From: Halovivax gelatinilyticus | GTDB lineage: Archaea; Halobacteriota; Halobacteria; Halobacteriales; Natrialbaceae | Direction: 5' to 3' | Length of the DNA stretch: 64,000 bases | NCBI RefSeq assembly: GCF_024300625.1 | Contig: NZ_CP101322.1 | Coordinates: 2,059,992-2,123,991, forward strand | Shown here: positions 2,821 to 11,577 of the stretch, one piece after another | Layout of the letters: each line of letters begins with the position of its first letter | How positions within the stretch are numbered: position 1 is the first letter of the stretch | Notes under the pieces: generated by a model | What the model was told of the DNA's origin: nothing | Database searches by the model: none | What the model saw: only the letters and a program-made list of their open reading frames with translations | Program-made: the position numbers and the translations under genes

Positions 2821-5800
2821 TTATCCTGCCAGCGTCGGCGCTGATACACGCACGGTCGGCGTCGGCTCGGTCGTCGAACCGGCGGAGACGATGGCGGCCT
2901 GTTCGATTGCCGTCTCGACGGCTTCGACGACGTCGTCCTCGTCTTCGAGGGTCGACTCGGCGAGCGTCGTTGTGAGTTCGCCGGCAGCGGCCTCCGCGAA
3001 CGCGTCCGTCTCGTTCGCGGGAACGTCCGCCGAAGCGTCCGCCGTTTCGCTCGCGATCGCCTCGACCAGCGCGCCGTGATACTCGTCTGGCGTCACGCCG
3101 ACCCCTTCGGCGATCAGGTGATCGACGGTCTCGTAGTAAGCCTCAGCCGATCCGTCCCCGGCTGACGGCTCGCCGTCGTCTCCGTCGTCCAGTCCGAGTT
3201 CGTTCGCGTACGCCGAGAGCGACGGGTTCTCGCCCAGGCGGGCCGGCAACTCGCCGTCGTCTTCGGCGAAGACGAAGTAGCCGGTGAACGCGCTCACGGT
3301 CGGGACGTCTTCGTCCGAGAGTGAGAACGTTCCGTCGATGACGTCGGCGTCGCCGGGTTCGTCGCTCGGGCCGGCGAAGTCGGGAGAGACGAGGGAGATG
3401 TCGCCGCTCGAGTGACCGAACGCGTCGTTCGCCGGCGCGTACGTCGGCGAGGACACGAAGTTCCAGCCCGTTTCGAGGTCGATCGATTCGGGCGACGGCG
3501 GCGTATCCGCGTCACTCTCGAAGTTCATCGTGATCGCTCCGTCGGTTTCGGCGACGACGAGGAGCGCTTCGAGGGCGTCGACGCTGTCGTTGCCGCCGAG
3601 TTGTTCCCACTCGTTTTCGGTCGCGTCGAAGCCGTAGATCACGCCCTCCGCGTCGGTGACCATCTCGTCGATCGTTCCGGATACGGGTCCGGGAATGCCG
3701 ACCGCGTGGGTCTGGCCGGCTTCGAGCTCGACGGCGGTTGCGACGCCGGACTGGTCGTAGTCGACGGTCGCGTCCGGAAGGAACGGATCGGCCGTCACGT
3801 CGCCGGCGGTGCTGACTCGCTCGCCCACCGACGGATCGTCAACCGGGCCGTGCGGACCGAAGTAGTTCAATCGAGCGTCGACCGGTCCCATTGCGCCGTC
3901 GTGAGCGTCATAGACTCCGACGTCCGTCTCCGAGAAGTCGTTTCCACGGATGTGGACCGGTTCGTCGGCCGCGTAGTCGAGTTCGCCGAGGACGCTCGTC
4001 TCGACGCCGATGTGGGTGTCGAACGCGTTGTCGACGACGGTTGCGTTCCACGTCGGATCGGCGTGGAGAGCCGGATTGAGGGTGAGATCGACGCCGACCT
4101 CGGAGTCGGTCACCTCGTTGTCGACGACGTACCCGACGCCGGCGGATTCCTGCTCGACGCCGATCTGTGCGCCGCTGATCTCGTTGTTCTCGACCGTCGC
4201 GGTCGCCACTTCGAGGAGGACGCCGGCGTCCTCGGGATCGACGATCGTGTTGTCGCGGACGATCGCGTCCTCGCTCAACTCGCCGAGTTCGATGCCGTTG
4301 TGGCCGGGTTCGGTGACGGTGACCTCCTCGATCAGGACGTCGTTCGACCGGTGGATGCGCACGCCGGCCCAGAACGGCTCTTCGACCTCGACGTTACGGA
4401 TTTCGACGCCGTGAGCCTGTCCGGTCGACGAACCGGCCCAGACGCCCTGGTAGGGTTCGACGATTCGCATGTTCTCGATCGTGACGTCCTCGACGGGTTC
4501 GTGCATCGAGTGACGGACGCCGACGCCGTTGTTGTACGTTTGGCCGCTCGTGTCGGTCGTAAAGCCGTCAATCGTGACGCCGTCTGCGCTCACTTCGATG
4601 ACGCCGGCTCGCGTGTGCGGCTCCCATCGTTCGTCCTGCTGTTCGATGACGGGTTCCGCGCCATCTGCGGCGCGGATCGTGACGTCGACGTTGTCGGCGG
4701 TGACCCAGATCGGATCGTAGGTGCCGTCCTCGACGACGACCTCGTCGCCGACGTGGACGGTGTCGACGACGTGTTGTAAGTCGTCGTCATCGGTCACGCG
4801 GATCTCGTCGCCCTCGTAGACGCTCGTCGGTCCGGTCGCGCCGGTGATCGTCTCGTTGCCGACCTCGTACGCGTGATCGAACGTGAGTTCGCCGAACGCG
4901 TCCGCACCGATGTCGGCGGACAGCTCGATCGACGAGCGGTTCTCGACGGTCGGTTCGAACGTCTCGCCGAGCTCGACGTCGTGCGTGCCCTCGTCGTCGA
5001 CGATGGCGATCGATATCTCCTCGGGATCGACGGTCGCGTGTTCGTTCAGACCGATCGTGACCGATTCGAGCGGATCGTCGGTCTCGGTCTCGTTCGTCGT
5101 CGGAACGGAGACCTCCATCTCGCCGGTCTGGCCGGGGTCTACCTTCCACGGCTGGTGGTCCTCGACGGACACGCCGTGGTCGTCCGCCGCCCAGTGGACG
5201 GCGTTGCCGAGGAGTTCGCTCCCCTCGTCTAGGATGATGCCCGTGTCCGTTTCGGCGAGGCCGCTCGCGATGACGGTGCGGCTCAGGTCGTCGACGCCGA
5301 GTCCGCCGACGTCACCGTACTCGCCGTGCATTCCGTCACCATCGATCGATCGAGGTTGGCAGCCCGCGAAGCTACACTGCTCGTTCGCAATGTGGGCCAG
5401 GTTGTCGGATCGGTAGTCCTCGATGAAGTTTAGAACCTCCTGCTCGCGGAACGGCACGTGTTCGTGATCGTCAGCCCAACCCCGGGCCTCCAGGTAGTCG
5501 GCCGTCTCGTTTCGAATTTCGACGTCCAGAATGTCGCTGTCCGTTTCTGAACCGTCGTAGGAGACGATCTGCGAGTTGTCGATCGGCATCGGCGTGTGCA
5601 GGCCGCGCGGATCGCCGGTCGCCTCGGACAGTTTCGTGATTCCGTTGGCGACCTGTCGCTGATCGAGGTACACGACCCCGACGTCGGATCGCTGGGTCTG
5701 TTCGACGAACTGGCGCATCGCGTCGGTCGACGGCTCGTCCTGGACGACGTAGACGTCGTACTCGTCGACGACTCCGATCACCGAGTTCGCGCCGCGGACG

Positions 5801-8046
5801 AGCTCCACCTCGTGATGGTCGTCGAGTTCGTCGTCGAGCCGGTCGACCAGCGCCGGACCGAGCTCGCGGTCGGATTCGTCGTCGTAGCCGTACTCGACGA
5901 TCGGGTCGGAGAGGACCGCTATCTCGAGGGCCTCCTCGACGTGTACGTCGGTCGGGCCGTGCGTTTCGGTCGCGTTCTCGCCGTAGAGACCGTCGAACTC
6001 GGCTTCGAGCGTAACGGCTCCGGCCGTCTCGTTGTTCACCTCCTCGCCCGGCTCCTCGGGCTCGACCGAGAGTTCGACTTCAGCCGGATAGTCAGAAAAT
6101 TCATCGTCGGTTCGGTCGTCGAACTCGAACGGTTCGCCGAACTCGAGTTCTTCCTCGCCGAACATCTCGTCGGTTTCGATCGAGAGCGTGACGTTTCCGT
6201 CGAAATCGCCGTCACGCTCGACGACGAGTGTGTCGGCGTGCCACGCGTCGTAGGTGATCTCGTAGTCCTCGCCGGGTTCGATCGCGTCCGGGGCGTCTTC
6301 GTCGACGACGACGCCGAGCGTTCGATCCATGCTGGCGTGGGCGGTCGCGAACTCGCCGTCGGCGACGTCCACGTCGATCGGTTCGTCTTCGTACCCGTCG
6401 ACGTCGACGGTCACTTCGTGGCTCCCCGGCGGCGTCTGAATCGCGTACGTGCCGAGGTCGTCCGTTTCAGTCGAGAGCTCGGTTCCGTCTTCGAGTTCGA
6501 CGGTGACCGTCGCGTCGGGGAATCGCGCTTCGTCGTCGGCGCGTTCGACCGTCCCCGTCACGCCCGTGTCGCCGCGTAGCGTCGCAACGGCGAGGTGGGC
6601 GTCGATGATCCCGTGTCCGTAGCGGACGTCCTGTTCGGGCGGAGCCTCGTCGGGTTTCCAGCTGGTCTCGACGAGGGCGTCTCGAACCTGATCGGTCGAG
6701 AGGTCGGTACTGGTCGCCGAGAGCATCAGGGCGGCCGCCCCGGTCACGTGGGGCGTCGCCATCGACGTTCCTGGAAGTTCCTGGTAGTCGCCGCCCGGAT
6801 AGGCGCTCAGCACGTCGTCACCGGGTGCGCTCAGGTCGGGAACGACGTATTCGTTGGGCCAGTCGTCGGGAGCGTCGCTCCCGAACTGAGCGGCAGAGAC
6901 CTCCATGCCGCTGGAGAAGTCCGTCACGCTCGCGTTCTCGTCGACCGCACCGACGCTCAGGGTGCTGTAGTAGTTCGCGGGCGAACCGCTGGTTCCTTCG
7001 CCCTCGTTCCCGGAGGAGGTGATCACCATCGTGTCGGTATCGATCGCTCGCTCGACCGGTTCGATGAGTTCGGGGTGCATCCCGTCCGCGCCGAGACTCA
7101 TGCTGATCAGATCCGCCTCTTCTTCGACGGCCCACTCGATCCCGGCCGCGATCTGGGCGAACGAGCCGCTTCCGTCGGCGCTGAGGACGGCGCCGTGCAT
7201 CAGGTCGGCGTCCGGGGCGACGCCGATGTGTTCGCCGCTCTCGTTGCCGCCGGCGACGGTTCCGCTGACGTGGGTTCCGTGACCTTGCGGATCCGCCGGC
7301 GTGTCACCCTCGACCTTCTCTCCTTCGGTCGTAAACCGGGCCCAGCCACCGGGATAGGTCGGATCGTTCGGATCGTCGGTGTATAGATCGAGGTCGGGAT
7401 GGGCGACGTCGATCCCGGTGTCGAGAACGGCGACGCGAACGCCTTCACCCTTCGTGTCGTAGTCCTCCCAGACGTCCTCGGCGTTCACCATGTCGACGCC
7501 GTAGGTCGTCTCGTCGTCACCGGCGGTCTCGAGGCTCGTCACCGCCCCGCCGTCGGTTTCGGCCTCGCTGGATTCGACCGGCATCGGCGCGTTCACCTCG
7601 AAGTTCTCGTGGAGCGCTTCGACGTGATCGAGCCTCGTTAGCTCCTCGATGGCCACCCGGTCGGTGTCCACCTCGAGGACCACGGCGTTCGCGATCCAGT
7701 ACGAGGCCTGGTGTTCGACACCGGCCCTTTCGTCGGCGAACGAGCGTACGTCGGCTTGCGTCTCCTCGGCGTGCCTCTGGAGCGCGTTCACCGGCTCGTC
7801 GCTCGAGGCGACGGTCATACTATCGGCGCCATCGAGTCGGACGACGACCGTTTCGGTTCCGTTGGCGTCGGAAAGTGCGTCACTCACCTCGACGTCCGTT
7901 TCCACCTGGTTCTCCCCGATCGTCGCGTGGGGGTCCTGTTCGGCTGGGTCGCTCGCAGCGATCGAACCGACTGCCACGCCGGCTACCCCGATCAATACCG
8001 CGAGGGTAACCGCCAGCAGGATCGATCGTCTCGAAGGCGATACCAT
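2821..8046 (-). CDS. Large secreted S8 (subtilisin-family) protease with right-handed beta-helix region
   Basis: A 1741-residue exported serine protease. A signal helix spans residues 8-31 and an I9-like prodomain roughly 45-155. The S8 catalytic domain spans about 180-480, with Asp209 (VAVLDTGID), His256 (GHGTHVSGT), oxyanion Asn347 (SSGNEG) and Ser428 (GTSMATPH). A CarboxypepD_reg-like Ig domain follows (about 485-570). A region resembling ThuA/class-I-amidotransferase-like folds comes next (about 730-1010; DVYVVQDEP). A parallel beta-helix (NosD/PbH1-type repeats such as GVEIRNVEVEEPFWAGVRI) spans about 1120-1440. The C-terminal region is a mixed beta part followed by an Ala/Glu-rich helical part. 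Unlike the proteases at 22760 and 27493 it has no CARDB domain and no PGF-CTERM tail; the next gene encodes both. An adhesion, glycan-binding or degradative role of the beta-helix is inference. Confidence 0.92.
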   Translation of the reverse strand: MVSPSRRSILLAVTLAVLIGVAGVAVGSIAASDPAEQDPHATIGENQVETDVEVSDALSDANGTETVVVRLDGADSMTVASSDEPVNALQRHAEETQADVRSFADERAGVEHQASYWIANAVVLEVDTDRVAIEELTRLDHVEALHENFEVNAPMPVESSEAETDGGAVTSLETAGDDETTYGVDMVNAEDVWEDYDTKGEGVRVAVLDTGIDVAHPDLDLYTDDPNDPTYPGGWARFTTEGEKVEGDTPADPQGHGTHVSGTVAGGNESGEHIGVAPDADLMHGAVLSADGSGSFAQIAAGIEWAVEEEADLISMSLGADGMHPELIEPVERAIDTDTMVITSSGNEGEGTSGSPANYYSTLSVGAVDENASVTDFSSGMEVSAAQFGSDAPDDWPNEYVVPDLSAPGDDVLSAYPGGDYQELPGTSMATPHVTGAAALMLSATSTDLSTDQVRDALVETSWKPDEAPPEQDVRYGHGIIDAHLAVATLRGDTGVTGTVERADDEARFPDATVTVELEDGTELSTETDDLGTYAIQTPPGSHEVTVDVDGYEDEPIDVDVADGEFATAHASMDRTLGVVVDEDAPDAIEPGEDYEITYDAWHADTLVVERDGDFDGNVTLSIETDEMFGEEELEFGEPFEFDDRTDDEFSDYPAEVELSVEPEEPGEEVNNETAGAVTLEAEFDGLYGENATETHGPTDVHVEEALEIAVLSDPIVEYGYDDESDRELGPALVDRLDDELDDHHEVELVRGANSVIGVVDEYDVYVVQDEPSTDAMRQFVEQTQRSDVGVVYLDQRQVANGITKLSEATGDPRGLHTPMPIDNSQIVSYDGSETDSDILDVEIRNETADYLEARGWADDHEHVPFREQEVLNFIEDYRSDNLAHIANEQCSFAGCQPRSIDGDGMHGEYGDVGGLGVDDLSRTVIASGLAETDTGIILDEGSELLGNAVHWAADDHGVSVEDHQPWKVDPGQTGEMEVSVPTTNETETDDPLESVTIGLNEHATVDPEEISIAIVDDEGTHDVELGETFEPTVENRSSIELSADIGADAFGELTFDHAYEVGNETITGATGPTSVYEGDEIRVTDDDDLQHVVDTVHVGDEVVVEDGTYDPIWVTADNVDVTIRAADGAEPVIEQQDERWEPHTRAGVIEVSADGVTIDGFTTDTSGQTYNNGVGVRHSMHEPVEDVTIENMRIVEPYQGVWAGSSTGQAHGVEIRNVEVEEPFWAGVRIHRSNDVLIEEVTVTEPGHNGIELGELSEDAIVRDNTIVDPEDAGVLLEVATATVENNEISGAQIGVEQESAGVGYVVDNEVTDSEVGVDLTLNPALHADPTWNATVVDNAFDTHIGVETSVLGELDYAADEPVHIRGNDFSETDVGVYDAHDGAMGPVDARLNYFGPHGPVDDPSVGERVSTAGDVTADPFLPDATVDYDQSGVATAVELEAGQTHAVGIPGPVSGTIDEMVTDAEGVIYGFDATENEWEQLGGNDSVDALEALLVVAETDGAITMNFESDADTPPSPESIDLETGWNFVSSPTYAPANDAFGHSSGDISLVSPDFAGPSDEPGDADVIDGTFSLSDEDVPTVSAFTGYFVFAEDDGELPARLGENPSLSAYANELGLDDGDDGEPSAGDGSAEAYYETVDHLIAEGVGVTPDEYHGALVEAIASETADASADVPANETDAFAEAAAGELTTTLAESTLEDEDDVVEAVETAIEQAAIVSAGSTTEPTPTVRVSAPTLAG

Positions 8047-8393
8047 AGTTCTCGAACAAACAATCCGACCCCTTGAACATTCTCTAAAGGGAGTTTTTGT
8101 TCAGAATGTAGCTAAATGGGTGTTTAGTAGAGATAGTTTTAGATAATGGATGACAGGTGGCGTCCGCTCCGCCAGTCGGGTTTCTCACCGAATTCGGCCG
8201 GCCTTGGGTACTGGGTACCTTTATCGGGATTGGTTAAACGCATTGGTGGTTTCTCATACGTTCGACCGTCGGTCACCCACCGGTGAGCACCGATTTAACT
8301 CTCCCCACTCTCACCGCCTGATACTTCTGACACGAGACTGCAGAAATAAACATCCATGCAGTTTATGCTACTGGAGCAATGTGTCACTGTTAC
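8047..8393. promoter_or_regulatory. Divergent promoter region (347 bp)
   Basis: This is the intergenic space between the protease (leftward) and the winged-helix regulator (rightward). It is AT-richer than its surroundings. The stretch GTTTATGC at 8361-8368 sits about 30 bases before the ATG at 8394, a TATA-like box for a leaderless transcript. On the leftward side AT-rich stretches at about 8080-8145 could serve the protease. I see no gene in it. Confidence 0.55.
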
Positions 8394-9302
8394 ATGCCCC
8401 CAGGCCCCTTAGATCCCCCCAATGGCGATCCGTCGGCGTCCAAGCCGCTCGCCTCAGCGGACGCCCTCTCGCTACTCGGGGACGAAACCCGTCTGAAAAC
8501 CCTCCTCGTTCTTCACGATCCGTCGACGTCCGTCCCGATGGATTTTTCGACCCTGTACGACCACGTCGACGCCGAATACTCGAGCGGGTTCAACTACCAC
8601 CTCGACAAACTGACTCCGCAGTTCGTCGCCAAGGACGACGACGGCTACCGACTCACGACCTTCGGTTCGCGCGTCGCCCGGGCCGTCGCGGCCGGCACCT
8701 TCACGAGCAACCGCGAGATCGATCGATTCGAACTCGAGGAAGCGTGTCTTTCGTGCGGCGAACGGTCGCTCTGGGCCTCCTACAGGGACGAGATGTTCGC
8801 CGTCGAGTGTGACGCCTGCGACGAACGGCTCATCTACATTCAACTCCCCCAGAACCTCGTCAACGAGCGCGAGGCCGACCAATTGATCGACGTCATCGAT
8901 CGATGGCTCCACCACTGGATGCGCATGAGCGTCTCGCTCGTCAGTCGCGGCATCTGTGAGTACTGCGGCGGTCCCGTCGACTCGTCCGTCGTCGATGACG
9001 TTCACCGCTACGACCGTCTGGACGTCCTCCTTCGCTTTCAGTGTCCGAACTGCGGCGAGGTCAAGCGGGCGACCGTCGGCGCCGTCGCCTCGCAGGATCC
9101 GGGCGTCAAAGAATTTCTGTACCAGCGCGGTGAAGCGCTCGACGATCGACGCTACTGGGAGATCGAACACTGGCTCTCCGATCGCCACCTCGAGATCGTC
9201 TCGACCGACCCGTGGCGATTTCGCGTCTCGTTTCACGCCGACGGCGATTCGTGTACGGCCACGGTCGACGACTCGCTCGACGTCGTCGACGTCTCTCGCT
9301 GA
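8394..9302 (+). CDS. ArsR-like winged-helix transcriptional regulator with C-terminal zinc-ribbon-like domain
   Basis: A protein of about 302 residues. The ATG at 8394 (MPPGPLDPPN) fits the TATA-like box at 8361; an in-frame ATG at 8379 is also possible. The N-terminal 100 residues form an ArsR-type winged helix (ALSLLGDETRLKTLLVLHD, then FNYHLDKL). The second half carries paired cysteines (CLSCGE, CDACDE, CEYCGG, CPNCGE), suggesting zinc-binding folds. Such proteins form a large haloarchaeal family (DUF7347/DUF7351-type, from memory). A paralogue lies at 19139-20083. It is divergent from the surface-protease gene, so control of that gene is possible but unproven. Confidence 0.85.
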   Translation: MPPGPLDPPNGDPSASKPLASADALSLLGDETRLKTLLVLHDPSTSVPMDFSTLYDHVDAEYSSGFNYHLDKLTPQFVAKDDDGYRLTTFGSRVARAVAAGTFTSNREIDRFELEEACLSCGERSLWASYRDEMFAVECDACDERLIYIQLPQNLVNEREADQLIDVIDRWLHHWMRMSVSLVSRGICEYCGGPVDSSVVDDVHRYDRLDVLLRFQCPNCGEVKRATVGAVASQDPGVKEFLYQRGEALDDRRYWEIEHWLSDRHLEIVSTDPWRFRVSFHADGDSCTATVDDSLDVVDVSR

Positions 9303-9322: not shown

Positions 9323-10243
9323 TCAGGTGCGGGTCGTGTTCCGTTCGAAGAACGCCATCAGTAACTCGTTTACGGCGTCCGGTCGCTCGATCCCGACCAG
9401 GTGACCCGCTCCGTCGATCGGTTCGCACTCCGCGTGAGCGAGTTGCGCGGCGAGCGTCGTTCCGCCCTCGATCGGGGCGAGTCGGTCGGCCCGCCCGTGG
9501 ACGACCAGCGTCGGGAGTCGCACCTCGTCGAGCCAGTCCCCGGCGTCGAAGCCGTTCCAGACGGCCCACTGCGCCTCGCGAACCGCCCGACTCGGTCCCT
9601 GGTCGAGTTGCCACTCGACGAGCCGATCGAACAGGTGCGGATTGCGGTTGACGAAGCGCTCGCTGAAATACGGACGGAGCCGGGTTCTGGCCCGCTGGCG
9701 ATCCGTGTTCCCGTCCGGATCGAGCACCGTCGAGCGAACGTCCGACGGGGTCTCGGGAACGTCACCGCCCGGACTCGTACCGACGAGACCGAGCGACGTC
9801 GCCCGATCGTACGATCGGGCGTACGAGAGCGCGACGGCCCCGCCTAGCCCCTGACCGACGAGGTGAACCGATCGCTCCCCGGTCTCGTCGAGCACCGCCT
9901 CCAGATCGGCGGCGAGGCCCTCGACCGAGTACCCGGCTCCGAGACCGAGCAGCGGTCGTCGGAGTCGACCGGGCAACCGAGCCGCCGGCCCGAGTCCGTC
10001 GGCGGACCGATCGACGCGGTCGGTCTCGCCCGCGAGGCCGCCGTCGGTTCGCACGCCCCGGATGCCGACCCCGCGCGTATCCGGAGCGATCACGTCGTAT
10101 CGCTCCGAGAGCGCCGCGCGCTGCCAGCGCCACGACCAGCGGCCGATCCCGACTCCCTGGAGGAAGACGACGGTTCCCTCGGGGGCTGCGGTTCGGTCGA
10201 CCTCGTAGCGAATCGCGACGCCGTCGCGACTAGTTGTCGGCAT
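9323..10243 (-). CDS. Alpha/beta-hydrolase fold protein lacking the nucleophilic serine
   Basis: A 306-residue protein of the alpha/beta-hydrolase family. I chose the ATG at 10243 (MPTTSRDGVAIRYEVD) because the family's first strand starts there; the frame runs further upstream without family features. The oxyanion-hole region is FLQGVGIGRWSW. The nucleophile elbow, normally GxSxG, reads GQGLG with Gly132 (codon GGG at 9848-9850). The acid (HGRADRLAP) and histidine (GAGHLVGIERP) positions remain. It is therefore probably not an ordinary serine esterase or lipase; it may be a non-catalytic member or use different chemistry. It is convergent with the regulator at 8394 and divergent from priL. 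Confidence 0.8.
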   Translation of the reverse strand: MPTTSRDGVAIRYEVDRTAAPEGTVVFLQGVGIGRWSWRWQRAALSERYDVIAPDTRGVGIRGVRTDGGLAGETDRVDRSADGLGPAARLPGRLRRPLLGLGAGYSVEGLAADLEAVLDETGERSVHLVGQGLGGAVALSYARSYDRATSLGLVGTSPGGDVPETPSDVRSTVLDPDGNTDRQRARTRLRPYFSERFVNRNPHLFDRLVEWQLDQGPSRAVREAQWAVWNGFDAGDWLDEVRLPTLVVHGRADRLAPIEGGTTLAAQLAHAECEPIDGAGHLVGIERPDAVNELLMAFFERNTTRT

Positions 10244-10443: not shown

Positions 10444-11577
10444 ATGAATCCGCGATACGCCCGGTACCCGTTCCTCGAGGCCGCCAAGGAGGCAGTCGCC
10501 TCCGAAGCGGTCGATCTCGTCTCCGTGATCGAGGACGAACCGGCCGTCGTCGAGCGGGCGACCGAGCGCGTCGAGTCCGCGCTCGAAGCGGGCGACGTCG
10601 GCGACCCGGTCCACGAGAGTCGGATCGAGCTATTTTCGTACCCGATCGCGCGCGTGCTCGTCTCGCTCGTCGACGAGCGGGTACTCGTCCGCCGGTACGC
10701 CCGTGCAGAGGGTGCGGTCGCCTACCAGCGTTTTACGGCGGATCTCGAGGATCCGACCGAACTCAAGAGCGTCGAGTCGACGGGACTCGACCTCTCGGAC
10801 CTGCTCTCCGAGTTCGACCTCGAGGGGTCGATCCGCGAGGCGCCGGCGGTCGAAGACGGGCCCGTTCCGACGGACGCCGCCTCCGGGCCGTCCGGCCCTC
10901 GCACAGAGCCGACATACCTGATCGAGGTGGGGACGTACCTGCCGCTGGCCGCCGACTGCTGGGGCGACGAGTGGCGGCTGGTCAACCGGGCGCTCGCCGA
11001 CGGCGAGGTGCCTGTGACGGAGACCGAGTTACTCACGCTCTTTCGCGAAGCCGTCACCCGTCGCGTCGAGGCGGGCCTGCCGTTCGACGTCCCCGACCCG
11101 ATCGCCGACGCGCTCGAAGACGAGGCCGCCGCGCTTCGCGAGCTGGTCGCCGAACTCGAACTCGTCCGCGAGATCGACACGGTGGTCCCGGAACTCTTCC
11201 CGCCGTGTATGAAGGCGCTGTTAGACGACATCCAGAAGGGAGAACACCTCCCACACCACTCGCGATTTGCGATCACGGCGTTTCTCGCTTCGATCGGGAT
11301 GAACACCGACGAGATCGTCGAACTCTACAGGATCAACTCCTCGTTCGGCGAGGAGATGACGCGCTACCAGACCGACCACATCCGCGGCGACACCTCGCCG
11401 ACGGAGTACTCGCCGCCGTCGTGTGCGACGATGCAGTCCTACGGCGACTGCGTGAACATGGACGACCTCTGTGAGCGCATTCCGCATCCGATGGCCTACT
11501 ACGAACAACGCCTCGACGACGAGGACGAAGACGACCTGGAAGACTGGCGCGAGGCCCAGGCGGCCGAAGCGGAGTAG
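10444..11577 (+). CDS. priL: DNA primase large subunit PriL
   Basis: A 377-residue protein matching the archaeal/eukaryotic primase large subunit, which works with the catalytic PriS to make RNA primers. The N terminus (MNPRYARYPFLEAAKEAV) is typical. The C-terminal iron-sulfur domain is complete, with four cysteines at 255 (FPPCMKALL), 327, 336 and 343. The HLPHHSRFAITAFL segment before the second cysteine is also characteristic of the family. A TATA-like TTTATCC at 10411-10417 lies about 30 bases before the ATG, so the transcript is probably leaderless. The small subunit is not in this window. Confidence 0.96.
   Translation: MNPRYARYPFLEAAKEAVASEAVDLVSVIEDEPAVVERATERVESALEAGDVGDPVHESRIELFSYPIARVLVSLVDERVLVRRYARAEGAVAYQRFTADLEDPTELKSVESTGLDLSDLLSEFDLEGSIREAPAVEDGPVPTDAASGPSGPRTEPTYLIEVGTYLPLAADCWGDEWRLVNRALADGEVPVTETELLTLFREAVTRRVEAGLPFDVPDPIADALEDEAAALRELVAELELVREIDTVVPELFPPCMKALLDDIQKGEHLPHHSRFAITAFLASIGMNTDEIVELYRINSSFGEEMTRYQTDHIRGDTSPTEYSPPSCATMQSYGDCVNMDDLCERIPHPMAYYEQRLDDEDEDDLEDWREAQAAEAE

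Follow-up and report, generated by a model that had tools for sequence, protein, structure and literature searches.

The window, by which we mean the whole 64,000-nucleotide stretch analysed here, comes from a Halovivax gelatinilyticus genome assembled as one contig of 3.7 Mb. Its reverse strand carries a gene for a protein of the α/β-hydrolase fold (Table 1). The Pfam model Abhydrolase_1 (PF00561) covers residues 24-288 (E 9.5e-21), and the start of the protein, MP, is common to most aligned homologues; for the family orthologues, starts were read with a script that favoured ATG followed by Pro. In translation the elbow context reads VGQGLGG. HMMER alignments to the structures 8pzg and 4uhh place residue 132 on the Ser of the GxSxGG motif, Asp253 on Asp and His281 on His. 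In the AlphaFold model (built from 41 sequences, mean pLDDT 90.9, pTM 0.90), residue 132 forms the turn between strand 126-131 and helix 133-144, and this predicted strand ending at 131 and helix starting at 133 make up a canonical nucleophile elbow. Translation, alignments and model thus confirm the original prediction, which had placed a Gly (codon GGG) at the GQGLG elbow and had described the acid and the His as kept.

Table 1. Features of the hydrolase locus (window coordinates) and the Gly-elbow paralogue of the same genome.
Feature	Position	Strand	Basis or use
α/β-hydrolase-fold gene, 306 aa, ATG start	9323..10243	-	translation, Pfam match, homologue alignment
Codon GGG, Gly132, at the nucleophile position	9848..9850	-	translation
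Nucleophile elbow, residues 130-134 (GQGLG)	9842..9856	-	translation, structure alignments, AlphaFold model
Asp253, catalytic-acid position; Asp in 115/115 orthologues	9485..9487	-	alignment
His281, catalytic-His position; His in 114/114 readable orthologues (1 of 115 rows ends at a contig end)	9401..9403	-	alignment
18-residue insertion (61-78), loop after strand 50-54	10010..10063	-	homologue alignment, AlphaFold model
Divergent neighbour, called priL (putative large primase subunit)	10444..11577	+	synteny and rate marker
L003 (= L217), Gly-elbow paralogue, family B	own genome C1:2472982-2473755

The Pfam match, the modelled elbow and the esterases found as top structural matches place the protein in the α/β-hydrolase fold superfamily. 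It departs from the classical α/β-hydrolases in having Gly132 where the G-x-Nuc-x-G motif carries Ser, Cys or Asp, and it agrees with them in the acid and His of the triad. A frameshift was rejected as the source of the odd stretch at residues 61-78, because the other four members of the genus also carry an insertion there, which is absent from the other aligned homologues. Residues 63-65 and 67-75 of the insertion fall below pLDDT 50 in the AlphaFold model.

At a threshold of E 1e-46 or better, the gene was present in 115 of 125 Natrialbaceae genomes. The divergently oriented neighbour, which we call priL as the putative gene of the large primase subunit, was matched in 110 of the 115 orthologue loci, 79 to 626 bases away. 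The five loci with no priL match were read with flanks of 1.5 kb (L014, L030, L033) or about 3 kb (L076), or, in L029, on a contig that starts 268 bases ahead of the hydrolase gene. With these few exceptions, the hydrolase is one chromosomal locus with a changing nucleophile. No functional neighbour, ligand or partner was found for the hydrolase, and the primase neighbour gave no functional clue. For the convergent neighbour in the window (8379-9302, + strand, 307 aa), nothing reached E 1e-8 around the other 114 orthologues, in flanks that were mostly 1.5-3 kb long; its product looks like a candidate winged-helix regulator. Further along, a frame of 1741 aa (2821-8046, - strand) appears by eye to encode a putative secreted subtilisin-type protease with a right-handed beta-helix region.

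The elbow residue was read in all 115 orthologues, and was Ser in 84, Gly in 21, Asp in 9 and Asn in 1; Ala was found in none of them. The original prediction, made for a single gene, is therefore refined: the residue is mostly Ser across the family, and in the 31 of 115 orthologues that depart from this, Gly, Asp or Asn takes its place. The alignment of close homologues that had been proposed as a check showed Gly to be conserved, since the elbow reads VGQGLG in all five Halovivax genomes examined, including species whose proteins are 49-61% identical to that of the window, and with the codons GGG, GGC and GGA. The other 16 Gly orthologues lie beyond these five. By genus (working numbers), a non-Ser elbow was found in all gene-bearing members of g1 (5), g6 (8), g19 (2), g26 (7), g29 (4), g15 (1) and g27 (1), and in part of two mixed genera, g13 (2 of 4) and g8 (1 of 5). 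Three residues occur within genus g6 (Asp 6, Gly 1, Asn 1), and one pair of orthologues with 93% identity differs as Asp and Asn at the elbow.

The Ser codon was AGC or AGT in all 84 Ser orthologues, and the non-Ser codons were GGN for Gly, GAC or GAT for Asp, and AAC for Asn. AGY, GGY, GAY and AAY are neighbours by a single transition; GGA and GGG need one more silent change. The backbone at the elbow residue is strained and left-handed, a conformation best tolerated by Gly, Asn and Asp. The set of substitutes fits a position that is kept for its shape and no longer for its chemistry.

Selection was compared in close pairs (same genus, identity at least 85%), which are not independent of each other. 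The dN/dS of non-Ser pairs ranged from 0.049 to 0.211 (median 0.163, 16 pairs), and that of Ser pairs from 0.057 to 0.37 (median 0.140, 305 pairs). None of the 31 non-Ser matches contained an internal stop, one of them ending at its contig end. The non-Ser genes are thus uninterrupted and retain purifying selection. These low ratios support the claim that selection maintains the gene although classical hydrolysis is lost, a loss that we infer.

Relative to priL, the non-Ser genes diverge about 1.5-2 times faster. Within genera, the median ratio of hydrolase distance to priL distance was 1.05 for Ser-Ser pairs (523 pairs), 2.24 for non-Ser pairs (64) and 2.96 for mixed pairs (8), with exceptions in both directions (five g26 pairs below 1; some Ser genera up to 1.8-2.0). 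With Ser sequences from other genera as references and with averages taken for each genus, the ratio was 2.06 in 9 non-Ser groups versus 1.34 in 16 Ser groups (Mann–Whitney p 1e-4); the priL distance itself differed slightly (0.26 versus 0.24, p 0.02), and one Ser group, g24, with a ratio of 1.88, lies inside the non-Ser range. The mixed genera gave the same direction, with 1.20 for Ser versus 1.74 for Gly in g13, and 1.45 versus 2.21 in g8. The faster divergence adds a second refinement to the original prediction, in that some constraint on the non-Ser copies is relaxed.

To locate this relaxation, columns invariant in the Ser sequences were examined in the readable non-Ser sequences. Leaving out position 132, there are 80 such columns, of which 36 are unchanged, among them Asp253 and His281, and 44 vary. 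Among 111 columns conserved to at least 97% in the Ser sequences, relaxation affected 7 of 16 near the oxyanion loop, elbow, acid and His versus 10 of 95 elsewhere (Fisher p 0.003, for segments picked after the data had been seen). Gly30 of the oxyanion loop is Gly in 84/84 Ser sequences and in 16/31 non-Ser sequences. The motif GRWxWRWQR after strand 3 is nearly intact in the non-Ser sequences. The active site is thus changing while its Asp-His pair stays in place. Leu occupies positions 128 and 133 in 31/31 non-Ser sequences, compared with 18/84 and 11/84 Ser sequences, respectively. A link between these residues and the loss of Ser was not established, as the starred branches of the priL tree provide only four independent pairs (sign test p 0.125 for Leu133 and 0.5 for Leu128).

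The history of the elbow was followed on trees of the hydrolase and of priL. A gene tree of 66 of the 115 rows, made without three elbow columns, required a minimum of 8 changes among Ser, Gly, Asp and Asn, and 4 between Ser and non-Ser. A second subset of 47 rows, without residues 128-134, required 6 and 2, and the priL tree (61 of the 110 rows with priL) 12 and 9. With the four-state labels shuffled, the priL tree required 25 changes on average and at least 18 (200 shuffles), far more than observed, so the elbow state follows descent. The gene trees and the priL tree agree on this descent and disagree on the number of changes. By the AU test, a tree with all non-Ser rows as one clade was not rejected (p 0.50), nor were those with g13 (p 0.74) or g8 (p 0.40) as a clade, and the tree keeping g13 together was better than the free tree.

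We take Ser to be the presumed ancestral state, because most orthologues and the wider group of Ser paralogues have Ser, and because Gly and Ser coexist in g13 and g8 beside closely similar priL genes. Ser would then have been lost more than once. In an identity comparison that favours Ser by its larger number of sequences, 17 of the 31 non-Ser sequences had higher identity with a Ser sequence than with a non-Ser sequence from another genus, most clearly L080, L044 and L042. The remaining 14 include the window sequence, 6 of 7 from g26, both from g19, and L027; for the window sequence, identity to other genera was 0.540 for non-Ser and 0.528 for Ser. In a tree with paralogues, the Gly-elbow sister family falls outside and non-Ser rows lie near the base. 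No direction was taken from this tree, because its outgroup rows are very long and do not form one clade. For part of the tree the direction was possibly the reverse, from Gly to Ser.

The genome of the window also encodes two paralogues, L002 with Ser and L003 with Gly at the elbow, the latter a member of a sister family that we call family B. At E 1e-50, 192 of the 243 genomes of the order gave a match to family B, a count in which some matches may be another paralogue; its members are present in many families of the order. In 90 of its sequences (loci L214-L303) the elbow is Gly and the acid Asp in 90/90, and the His position is His in 87 and Arg in 3. Family B, which is of the GGWSWGWQ type, resembles the window protein in its Gly elbow and retained acid (39-41% identity in the 4 members compared), and differs in being a separate gene with no priL match beside the 6 members checked. 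Within the flanks available, a glutamine-amidotransferase-like match accompanies 49 of the 90 loci, and an acyl-CoA-ligase-like match 35. A ligase downstream at the G002 locus had suggested MenH as an identity for family B; this was discarded, since the one ligase beside family B that was tested (L207) reached 45 bits with the menE model, whose cutoff is 330.

A Ser paralogue was found in 9 of 31 genomes with a non-Ser elbow versus 4 of 84 with Ser (Fisher p 0.0009, uncorrected for relatedness; two rows representing the priL-locus gene itself were left out). Redundancy through such a paralogue may have helped the loss of the nucleophile; it cannot explain the 22 non-Ser genomes that lack one. 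Ten of the 125 genomes have no priL-locus gene at the threshold used, and 8 of these, in g7 and g10, carry the Ser paralogue, as if it were replacing the missing gene.

The closest folds were the esterases 6eb3 (query TM-score about 0.78) and 8v16, and the 3-oxoadipate enol-lactonase 2xua (about 0.74). Such PcaD-like hydrolases and esterases (2xua, 6eb3, 8v16, 4uhc) share the fold and element order of the window protein, which, unlike them, has no nucleophile and is 20-24% identical to them. Membership in PcaD itself (TIGR02427) was rejected, the score being 93.7 bits against a cutoff of 255.85.

Two other systems offer comparisons. The available part of PMC4350108 describes DPP6 and DPP10 as inactive S9B dipeptidyl peptidases with Asp and Gly, respectively, at the nucleophile position; in DPP10 the elbow retains its shape and His and Asp remain bonded, and activity did not return when Ser was reinstated. 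They resemble the window protein in the α/β-hydrolase fold, in the Asp or Gly at the nucleophile position and, for DPP10, in the His-Asp pair. The parallel is one of analogy: DPP6 and DPP10 are glycoproteins of animal membranes, contain a beta-propeller and act as modulators of Kv4 channels, whereas the window protein is small, single-domain and archaeal, and its orthologues vary among Ser, Gly, Asp and Asn at one locus. In HOD-type cofactor-independent dioxygenases (HOD, AqdC), according to the available text of PMC10548524, the nucleophile can be dispensed with and is Ala in some natural forms, and a His-Asp dyad acts as the base (H251-D126 in HOD, with S101 as the elbow residue). The fold and the His-Asp pair are shared with the window protein. 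The acid differs, as D126 follows S101 by 25 residues, whereas Asp253 lies 121 residues past the elbow, behind strand 245-250; on the spacing given in that text, the window protein is not of the HOD type. The Ala sometimes found in HOD/AqdC enzymes was likewise absent from the 115 priL-locus orthologues. Among the matches listed, the titles and abstract openings of the open-access literature mention neither this locus nor haloarchaeal Gly-elbow hydrolases.

The window protein probably has a role other than ordinary ester hydrolysis. Our preferred explanation, which we hold to be about evenly balanced between right and wrong, is that it is a pseudo-hydrolase that has lost covalent ester hydrolysis, has kept the fold, the pocket and the Asp-His pair, and most likely binds a ligand or partner. 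It would originate from a Ser-type α/β-hydrolase at the same chromosomal locus, in which the nucleophile was replaced in several lineages by Gly, Asp or Asn, residues that tolerate the strained elbow backbone. Formation of an acyl-enzyme needs a nucleophile, so the Gly and Asn forms could make none. The non-Ser forms would have lost hydrolysis, and with fold, pocket and Asp-His pair retained they may now bind a small ligand or a partner protein. As an analogy, DPP6 and DPP10, as far as the available part of their description goes, show that Asp or Gly at this position can be compatible with an inactive protein of another role. The same account bears on an objection to this explanation, namely that Asp253 and His281 are unchanged although more than half of the Ser-invariant columns vary in the non-Ser sequences: a mere binding protein need not keep the pair, although DPP10 does so. 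Also against a pseudo-hydrolase, the trees leave the Ser ancestry unsettled, and in comparison with other genera the window sequence has slightly higher identity to non-Ser sequences than to those with Ser.

The retained pair would be accounted for if His281 and Asp253 formed a general base in an active enzyme for which the elbow residue is dispensable, through proton abstraction, lyase, isomerase or oxygenase chemistry, or direct activation of water. The HOD-type precedent of the same fold (in the part of PMC10548524 available) and the invariant Gly and Asp of family B point the same way. We consider such catalysis the main alternative, possible but unlikely. In the non-Ser copies, constraint has loosened in the oxyanion loop and on either side of the elbow and the His, three family B members have Arg at the His position, and the exchange of Gly, Asp and Asn within one genus would alter the electrostatics beside the His. 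That exchange in g6 and the 93%-identical Asp/Asn pair also speak against a required chemistry at the side chain; an Asp-nucleophile enzyme of the dehalogenase or epoxide-hydrolase type was not favoured for the Asp members because of the exchange in g6. Together with the loosened oxyanion loop, this exchange makes binding without covalent catalysis likelier than catalysis by the dyad. Improbable, in our estimate, is decay under redundancy, in which the work has passed to another esterase and the gene is on its way to being lost; Gly, Asp and Asn would be steps reached by transition from an AGY Ser codon. The codons observed, the faster divergence of the non-Ser copies, their excess of Ser paralogues and the 8 paralogue-bearing genomes that lack the gene at the threshold are what drift would leave, but dN/dS stays near 0.16, no non-Ser copy contains a stop, Gly is common to Halovivax species with strongly diverged proteins, and most non-Ser genomes have no Ser paralogue. 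An assembly error, a private mutation or a mis-called frame is suggested by the unusual residue and nothing more, and is practically out of the question. The original prediction had named Ser in sister strains as the sign of such a case; Gly was found instead in all five Halovivax genomes examined, in three codons, as well as in the further Gly orthologues, and this conservation, with the low dN/dS of the close non-Ser pairs, excludes a private loss or a sequencing error.

To our knowledge, inactive or repurposed α/β-hydrolases have mostly been described as isolated cases. Nucleophile-less α/β-hydrolases are already known as a kind; beyond the single gene first noticed, the present case takes in a locus at which four elbow residues occur, and a sister family with a Gly elbow that is widespread. 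At this one locus, the catalytic residue varies across 115 orthologues while the rest of the triad is constant, and a conserved neighbour serves as rate control, so that loss of the nucleophile and its consequences become directly measurable, and this in archaea that are not pathogens. A more far-reaching conjecture, which we regard as doubtful, is that haloarchaea hold two related nucleophile-free enzyme families (family B, and the Gly, Asp and Asn forms of the priL locus) whose catalysis depends on the Asp-His pair alone. If so, the priL locus would represent natural, repeated switching between nucleophilic and nucleophile-free catalysis, and in part of the tree a Gly ancestor possibly gave rise to Ser again, with which the rough rooting is compatible. 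Family B, if functional, would be a widespread protein that passes for an ordinary hydrolase in the scores of general family models.
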